Assembly (NCBI GenBank): GCA_018608765.1
Contig: JABAYY010000086.1
Location: forward strand, 1-64,000
DNA length: 64,000 bases
Source: Flavobacteriaceae bacterium
Lineage (GTDB): Bacteria > Bacteroidota > Bacteroidia > Flavobacteriales > Flavobacteriaceae
Direction: 5' to 3'
A program made the translations under genes and the position numbers. Under the pieces are notes generated by a model that made no database searches, was not told where the DNA came from, and saw nothing but the letters and a program-made list of their open reading frames with translations. Positions 38,193 through 40,174 of this stretch are shown here, piece after piece (within the stretch, counting starts at the first letter, position 1; each line of letters begins with the position of its first letter).

Positions 38193-38274
38193 GCGGGCGT
38201 GGTGGAATTGGTAGACACGCTAGACTTAGGATCTAGTGCCGCGAGGTGTGGGAGTTCGAGTCTCCCCGCCCGCA
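38193..38274 (+). tRNA. tRNA-Leu (anticodon TAG)
   Basis: GCGGGCG...CGCCCGC acceptor stem, TGGNNGAATTGGTAGACACGC D arm, AGACT-TAG-GATCT anticodon loop, long variable arm, GTTCGAGTC; no encoded CCA. Confidence 0.96.
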
Positions 38275-38283
38275 CTAAACAAA

Positions 38284-38315
38284 AAAAAGCTTCTCATTTT
38301 GAGAAGCTTTTTTTA
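38284..38315. terminator. Terminator after tRNA-Leu
   Basis: AAAGCTTCTC-ATTTT-GAGAAGCTTTTTTT. Confidence 0.85.
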
Positions 38316-38768
38316 TTTAATTTTTTCAAACCTAAGTTTATTAATAAGCTGTTCTGATGAAAAGACATTTTGTAACATAGTACGATTGTTTGTATTTGTA
38401 AACAGGTCGATTATTTTTTTATTACTATCAATAATAAGATTAAGCGTTTGATCTAAGTTTGCAAAGTTGTTGTTTTTATAAAATTCTAAATAAATAATTA
38501 ACTGTAGATCTTCATTATTAATAAGATACCTAACACCCGCTTTAATAGCTGCTTTTACTCCCTTGTTTTTTTTTACATCTATGACAGATCCATTATCAAA
38601 GGATTTAATTTCTTTTAGTTTGTCCAAGGTGCTGTCCTTACTTGCGTTATTTACAGAACATATCTTTTGAATATCCTTAATTAAAAGCGTATTAAATGGG
38701 TATTCTTTAATCTCTTTTTCATTATTAGAAAACACGACGATGACTCCTTTTTTCATACTAGTTTTCAT
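38313..38768 (-). CDS. Small GT2 N-domain-like protein lacking a recognisable DxD (hypothetical)
   Basis: 151 aa; GVIVVFSNNEKEI...ICSVNNASKDSTLDKLKEI...KKNKGVKAAIKAGVRYLINNEDLQLIIYLE resembles a GT-A nucleotide-binding half. Confidence 0.5.
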   Translation of the reverse strand: MKTSMKKGVIVVFSNNEKEIKEYPFNTLLIKDIQKICSVNNASKDSTLDKLKEIKSFDNGSVIDVKKNKGVKAAIKAGVRYLINNEDLQLIIYLEFYKNNNFANLDQTLNLIIDSNKKIIDLFTNTNNRTMLQNVFSSEQLINKLRFEKIK

Positions 38769-38774
38769 TGGTTT

Positions 38775-39079
38775 TTAGGAAACTGACACAGACTTGCTTT
38801 TATAAAGGTATCGCAGTTTTGAAAGTGTTTTGTTTTCTCGTCTATAAGCCCATGCAATTTGTCCTAATTGCCACACAATTTTAATTGAATCCTTTATTGA
38901 TAGATTTGAGTTATCGGCATGAATCCACCCTTTTAAAGGTTGCTCGCAAAGTAGTTGTTTTGTTTTTTTTAAGCCAAAATGTAAAGTGATTCTTTTAAAT
39001 ATTTCAATGTCAAAAATCCATTTTGTAATAAATTTTTTTCTACGAGTTCGAGAAACTCTGTAAAAACGATTCCTTTCAT
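38775..39079 (-). pseudogene. Chimeric remnant: 5' end of an H-NOX (HNOB) gene fused to the 3' end of a GT2 glycosyltransferase gene
   Basis: ATG at 39079 reads MKGIVFTEFLELVEK, then in another frame KKFITKWIFDIEIFKRITLHFGLKKTKQLLCEQPLKGWIHADNSNLSIKDSIKIVWQLGQIAWAYR...*, a dolichyl-phosphate-hexosyltransferase-like C-terminus. Confidence 0.65.
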
Positions 39080-39107
39080 GTTAAATTCATATTAATTCGT
39101 TTGTGCA

Positions 39108-39410
39108 TCAATAGGCTATAGCTCTATCAATCTTCTTTACGTAATCTTCATATTTTAAAGGTTTTAAAATATATCCAGAGATTCCAATAGTGTAACATTC
39201 TATAAGATCTTTAGGGTTGTTAGATGTTGTTAAAATAATTACAGGGATGTGTTTTAAATCTGTATTCTTCTTTAGAATTGTTAAAAATTCAATACCACTC
39301 ACTTCAGGCATGTTTAAGTCTAATAAAATAATATTTGAAATGGCACTCGTGTCTTGTAAAAGTTCAAGAGCTTCTTCGGTATCTTTTGTTGAGTTTACAA
39401 GATGCTCCAA
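39108..39410 (-). pseudogene. Response regulator receiver domain, N-terminally truncated
   Basis: NIILLDLNMPEVSGIEFL...PVIILTTSN...GYILKPLKYEDY; lacks beta-1 and the acidic DD pair; in-frame stop just upstream. Confidence 0.65.
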
Positions 39411-39454: not shown

Positions 39455-40174
39455 ATGAAAAACAAAAAAATTTATTTTTTGGCCTTATTAACAATGGCCT
39501 TAGTATTTAATTCATGTGATACAAATACTGAAGAATTTCAAGCAGTATCACCATCCGATTCGTTTGAAACAAAATCGGGATCAATAATTGTGAACCCCCT
39601 CTCCAGCTCGTTTGAAATAGTTGTTACAGCTTCAGAAGCATATACAGCGGACCGTTCTCTTCCAATTGAAGTGACCAACGCCTCAACAGGAAGTGCACTT
39701 CAATATAGTTTTAGTGGAAATGTAGAAATTAGAGCAGGTGAACTCACAGGCTCTACCATGGTAGGATTTGAATTGGCTAATATACCATCAGGTGTAACCC
39801 AAGACCTTGTTCTTAGGTTAGTGTCAACTTCTGAAGAAATTACTATTTCTTACACAAAAATTTGTATTTCTAATGATGTAATGGTAAAACTTATTTTTGA
39901 TAATTACCCAGAAGAAACAGAATGGCGGATCACAGATTCTGCAAATTCAGTTGTTCAATCTGGAGGGCCTTATCCTGGAGAAACAAGTTTTGAAGCGTCT
40001 TACACACTTCCTGATGGAAATTATACGTTTACAATAACTGATATTTATGGAGACGGAATATGTTGTAGTTACGGAGACGGTTCATATCTAGTAGAATTAC
40101 CAAATTGTTCGACTATTTTAGGTCAAGGAGGTGAATTTGGCGCTTCAGAATCAATTACTTTTTCGTTGCCGTAA
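39455..40174 (+). CDS. Secreted lipoprotein with C-terminal GDGICC-type domain
   Basis: Lipobox-like LVFNSC; IFDNYPEETEWRITDSANSVVQSGGPYPG...NYTFTITDIYGDGICCSYGDGSY. Confidence 0.7.
   Translation: MKNKKIYFLALLTMALVFNSCDTNTEEFQAVSPSDSFETKSGSIIVNPLSSSFEIVVTASEAYTADRSLPIEVTNASTGSALQYSFSGNVEIRAGELTGSTMVGFELANIPSGVTQDLVLRLVSTSEEITISYTKICISNDVMVKLIFDNYPEETEWRITDSANSVVQSGGPYPGETSFEASYTLPDGNYTFTITDIYGDGICCSYGDGSYLVELPNCSTILGQGGEFGASESITFSLP

Follow-up and report, generated by a model that had tools for sequence, protein, structure and literature searches.

The window, the whole stretch of 64,000 nucleotides that was analysed, carries a tRNA-Leu(TAG) gene bordered on the minus strand by an open reading frame (ORF) and three incomplete genes, which derive from a receiver-GT2 glycosyltransferase fusion (RR-GT2), an H-NOX gene and a response-regulator (RR) gene. 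Coordinates are those of the window, and G001 is a congener:

38193..38275, plus strand: tRNA-Leu (anticodon TAG), found by ARAGORN, which borders the relic
38313..38337, no strand: second junction, between the end of the short ORF and the tRNA terminator region, where G001 has Rrf2-to-RIC genes (about 7.4 kb)
38313..38768, minus strand: 151-aa ORF like the N-terminal half of a GT2 (Glycos_transf_2, E=5e-5)
38775..39032, minus strand: last 85 codons and stop of a receiver-GT2 glycosyltransferase fusion, 80% aa identity to the 402-aa RR-GT2 of G001
39030..39042, minus strand: probable deletion junction, from the H-NOX side to the RR-GT2 side, one base off frame, in or around a 7-A run
39035..39079, minus strand: first 15 codons of an H-NOX (HNOB) gene, MKGIVFTEFLELVEK, 14/15 identical to family H-NOX N-termini
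39108..39410, minus strand: 5′-truncated response-regulator receiver gene (RR of the H-NOX operon), stop at 39108-39110, Pfam Response_reg

From 39079 the minus strand translates as MKGIVFTEFLELVEKNLLQNGFLTLKYLKESLYILA and a stop, in which MKGIVFTEFLELVEK is followed by NLLQNGFLTLKYLKESLYILA and the stop codon, out of frame with the GT2 tail downstream. The 15-aa start matched the H-NOX N-terminus at 14/15 positions, whereas the runner-up in the six frames of the 64 kb window reached 7/15 and the best matches in five shuffled windows 6-7/15. All of the 30 family H-NOX genes listed open with MKGIVFTEFL[DE]LVE, and the conserved N-terminus MKGIVFTEFLxLVE is present in the window, so that the assignment of this start to an HNOB protein, proposed earlier by a sequence-only reading, holds. 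The 36-aa ORF that it opens had no Pfam match and did not reach the HNOB (PF07700) cut-off, and no HNOB domain was found elsewhere in the window's genome, a 105-contig draft; the H-NOX piece is a remnant and no longer an HNOB family member. The RR fragment lies 28 nt upstream of this start, in the gene order of relatives, and matched Response_reg with E=2.4e-18 over profile positions 25-110 of 111. The RR proteins of the congener G011 and of the family genome G142 align with it from residue 28 onward at 61% identity, which indicates that the gene has lost about 27 N-terminal codons; the TTG at 39410 was called mechanically and is not likely to be the real start.

The GT2 tail (codons 38778-39032, stop 38775-38777) was 80% identical over 85 aa (E=5e-44) to the 402-aa G001 protein, which comprises a Response_reg and a Glycos_transf_2 domain. 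The sequence-only reading was thus right about a glycosyltransferase parent but not about a plain GT2. On its own the 85-aa tail matched zero Pfam families, as is expected, because PF00535 (residues 141-306 of 402 in the G001 protein) stops upstream of it, and 85 stop-free codons would arise by chance with a probability of about 0.002 at the window's base composition. The C-terminal homology to RR-GT2 is present in the window, the receiver and the GT2 catalytic domain of this fusion are not, and the RR-GT2 head was not found elsewhere in the window's genome. In G001 the counterpart of the 151-aa ORF is a 143-aa ORF directly after RR-GT2 (70% aa identity), and the DNA match at 38337-39038 runs unbroken across the tail and the short ORF at 79%. 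A scan of genome contigs returned no relatives of the 151-aa ORF and one distant match to the GT2 tail, in Aquimarina agarivorans. Compared with G001, dN/dS was 0.13 for the tail (dS 0.73) and 0.26 for the short ORF (dS 0.64), and dS of the flanking peptidase gene was 0.63. The silent-site divergence of the relics is close to that of the peptidase, which implies that most of it accrued under selection, before loss of function; the deletion proposed below would be recent compared with the separation from G001.

The 7-A run occupies 39033-39039, and the H-NOX side gives way to the RR-GT2 frame in or beside it. Together with the similarity of the tail to G001, this bears out the change of frame near a 7-nt poly-A, into about 85 aa of a glycosyltransferase C-terminus, that had been read from the letters. 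Congener DNA alignments break at the same place: the G001 match extends only to 39038, and that to G011 is split in two, 38833-39042 and 39030-39335. The H-NOX side of the join ends GTAGA/GAA and the GT2 side contributes AAAAAATTTATTACAAAATGG; about 3-9 nt are common to both sides, depending on the lost parental codon. One added A would place the H-NOX start and the GT2 tail in one frame. The shared stretch can be read as an in-frame AAATTT with a later one-base loss. Among the 30 H-NOX starts, however, there is variation (GAT, GAA, ACT) at the third codon behind VE, so that a direct out-of-frame join with 2-3 shared bases fits equally well. In a genus-wide DNA search the chimera was absent from all 17 other congeners; an intact small ORF conserved in relatives, which the sequence-only reading had named as the contrary outcome, was thus found in 0/17.

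The layout of the two parent genes was surveyed across the family, in which H-NOX was present in 104/301 genomes surveyed and the GT2 tail in 61/151. Genomes that had both an H-NOX match and a close match to RR-GT2 were tabulated; in 25 of them the two genes share one contig, and in 23 of these H-NOX lies upstream of RR-GT2 on the same strand, at a distance of 10.2-32.4 kb; the two exceptions are G118 (genes over 2 Mb apart) and the congener G011 (convergent, about 3 kb apart). The gene order of the interval is identical in G142, G109, G086 and G031. Its signalling part consists of a PAS kinase, a FIST protein, a second kinase, Hpt, a LytTR regulator and a T9SS-tailed protein, and its later part of TPR, STAS, flippase, glycosyltransferase, GH5-like, 404-aa and 1029-aa membrane proteins, after which RR-GT2 follows. 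The domains identified in the array are HNOB, PAS/HisKA kinase, FIST, Hpt, LytTR, STAS, Polysacc_synt, Glyco_trans_1 and RR-GT2. The predicted ancestral series of RR, H-NOX, kinase(s), intervening genes and GT2 was therefore recovered in family relatives. Denitrification genes had been guessed for the interval, wrongly; signalling and polysaccharide genes were found instead. The stretch G142:C1:1693000-1717300, with the same layout in G109, G086 and G031, presents a conserved array of an H-NOX phosphorelay operon and a polysaccharide locus ending in a receiver-GT2, of which no description turned up in the literature searched. With a receiver fused to it, the GT2 may be a glycosyltransferase that phosphorylation controls directly.

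In 23/25 genomes both parents thus stand in the same order and orientation with DNA between them, and a deletion in this family-typical layout yields the window's joint directly. We consider it highly probable that the feature is a deletion scar from ordinary gene loss, left where an array beside tRNA-Leu(TAG) underwent a single joining deletion. The ancestor would have carried, beside the tRNA, RR, H-NOX, histidine kinase, (FIST, kinase), Hpt, LytTR, polysaccharide export/synthesis genes, RR-GT2 and the short GT2-like ORF, and a recombination or repair event would have joined H-NOX codon ~15 to RR-GT2 codon ~312 within A-rich sequence. We infer that this happened in one step and through short homology, and that the loss amounted to an estimated 10-30 kb, with about 15 kb as the minimum judged from the G001 layout. 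The RR start and, beside the tRNA, the Rrf2-to-RIC genes would have been lost in separate truncations. With the one-base offset, the H-NOX start would stop after 36 codons and the GT2 tail would be left without a start; because the join is one base off frame, no chimeric or functional product is expected. The earlier proposal of one deletion that took the rest of H-NOX, the intervening DNA and the GT2 start accordingly agrees with the synteny, but not as the sole event, given at least two further truncations. The interior genes tested were not found in the window's genome (H-NOX/kinase N-part, RR-GT2 head and 1029-aa membrane gene), which is no proof of absence in a fragmented draft of 105 contigs that is 87% complete with 6.6% contamination.

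An inversion followed by loss was initially suspected. It would have started from a convergent layout like that of G011 (RR-GT2 forward, H-NOX operon reverse), with the reciprocal junction lost or unassembled. In G011 RR-GT2 on the plus strand faces LytTR-Hpt-HK-H-NOX-RR on the minus strand, only 3 kb apart, and an inversion between two such genes gives exactly the same-strand joint of the window. However, G011 is the sole close-range exception against 23 same-strand genomes, its array and tRNA-Leu are on different contigs, the array has no counterpart of the short ORF found behind the GT2 tail in the window and in G001, and neither the reciprocal junction nor interior genes were found in the window's draft genome. 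The family survey (23/25 on the same strand) led us to favour the deletion, and we regard the inversion as unlikely.

The history of the tRNA-Leu site was compared among congeners. The full RR-GT2 was found in only G001 and G011 among the 18 genus genomes searched, and likewise the 1029-aa gene. The G001 array runs from kinase, Hpt and LytTR onward to RR-GT2, the 143-aa ORF, the Rrf2-to-RIC genes, tRNA-Leu(TAG) and the window's peptidase; it is readable from the kinase onward, the stretch upstream (936000 down) being N, so that the absence of H-NOX there is no evidence. The GT2 end of the array therefore leads to tRNA-Leu(TAG) and the peptidase as in the window, in line with the link to this tRNA that had been proposed. 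At the second junction the DNA matches to G001 end at positions 38337 and 38321, one on each side, and by this comparison the Rrf2-to-RIC gene set beside the tRNA is missing from this site in the window. The set comprises Rrf2, a COX1-family gene, a cbb3 subunit II-like cytochrome, a 121-aa protein, a partial tryptophan-dioxygenase match, a SUF-type protein and RIC. This cbb3-like, NO-stress-looking set (L031:7197-14573 in G001) stands between array and tRNA-Leu, and is not at the window's site; the score of its COX1-family protein falls far short of the ccoN cut-off, and this protein may be either a divergent oxidase or an NO reductase.

G005 and G004 carry relics of the short ORF that lack a start, in the space that separates tRNA-Leu from the flavoprotein gene (window 40274); these relics end at different points, equivalent to window positions 38541 and 38417, respectively. 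Since two congeners thus retain shorter remains of the array at this position, the tRNA-Leu locus is a repeated-loss site. Window 38330-38541 and the G005 and G004 relics form a graded loss series at one site. The flavoprotein gene and tRNA-Leu abut in G015 and several other congeners, the RIC gene abuts the tRNA in G011 and G017, and an Rrf2 gene, as read from the sequence, abuts the flavoprotein gene in G011. In a tree of the peptidase gene, the window, G001 and G005 cluster with moderate support (0.87); this single-gene tree is compatible with one or several Rrf2-to-RIC losses. Among the congeners H-NOX is readable only in G011, where it converges on RR-GT2 and does not lie near the tRNA. 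The RR-H-NOX-kinase-Hpt-LytTR operon of G011 faces RR-GT2 (L032:6824-11320) and the polysaccharide genes are on the other side, a rearranged array. On the plus strand of the window, at 39455-40174, a 239-aa lipoprotein-like gene that matched neither Pfam nor NCBIfam has its start about 25-45 bp away from the truncated RR. G013 carries this gene beside tRNA-Leu without a relic, which marks its upstream region in the window as a further junction.

The join could also have been made by the assembler, from unrelated pieces of a mixed population, in a draft that is fragmented and partly contaminated and at a homopolymer. The shared stretch of about 3-9 nt is, however, far under the usual assembly overlap, so that reads should span it; moreover, the order of the pieces is the one expected of the array, as is the tRNA beside them, and two congeners hold independent relics of the array at the site. 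We judge such an artefact very improbable. Least credible of all is a small functional gene, either a fusion of about 100 aa from H-NOX start to GT2 tail made by slippage on the A-run or a retained start-less GT2 tail: the tail is open over all 85 codons with a low dN/dS against G001 and one extra A would unite the frames, but a search of 17 congeners did not find the chimera, the heme pocket and the GT2 catalytic domain are missing from both pieces, and selection preceding the deletion accounts for the low dN/dS. We likewise hold it very doubtful that the fragments are expressed and kept, as a slippage peptide of the H-NOX start and GT2 tail or as a 151-aa GT2-like ORF with a role after RR-GT2 loss.

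With the deletion scar as the preferred explanation, the lost trait can be considered. Control of biofilm/communal behaviour by H-NOX has been described (PMC8738867, PMC12329717), and in Vibrio fischeri HahK under NO/HnoX control acts on syp polysaccharide control (PMC12369376). On the basis of this published work and the family membership of the genes, the lost array most likely served to adjust surface polysaccharide in response to NO, sensed via H-NOX and a phosphorelay, and this trait would have gone with it. In a genus whose genomes are small, the scar and the intermediates in sister species document that a NO-sensing/polysaccharide array was lost repeatedly from one tRNA-Leu site. They also point to a conserved family arrangement, in which an H-NOX phosphorelay operon lies upstream of the polysaccharide locus that ends in receiver-GT2. 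The scar is novel as an instance only, and the intact family array from RR-H-NOX to RR-GT2 is the more interesting by-product.

Like the H-NOX/histidine-kinase operons of the HnoX-HahK type (HNOB, PF07700), the relatives' array has RR, HNOB, PAS-kinase, Hpt and LytTR in a row, whereas the window retains 15 H-NOX codons only and no kinase, so that NO sensing is impossible. Compared with the receiver-GT2 fusion (Response_reg + Glycos_transf_2) of G001, G011 and G142, the window lacks the receiver, the catalytic GT2 domain and the start, and its 85-codon tail is the C-terminus of that protein, at 80% identity to G001. Short-homology deletions and rearrangements in bacteria have been surveyed (PMC3411829). 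Although the window's parental sequence is gone and the shared length is only bracketed, at about 3 to 9 nt, the join resembles such deletions in that non-homologous genes are joined, with a short shared sequence, at an A-rich site.
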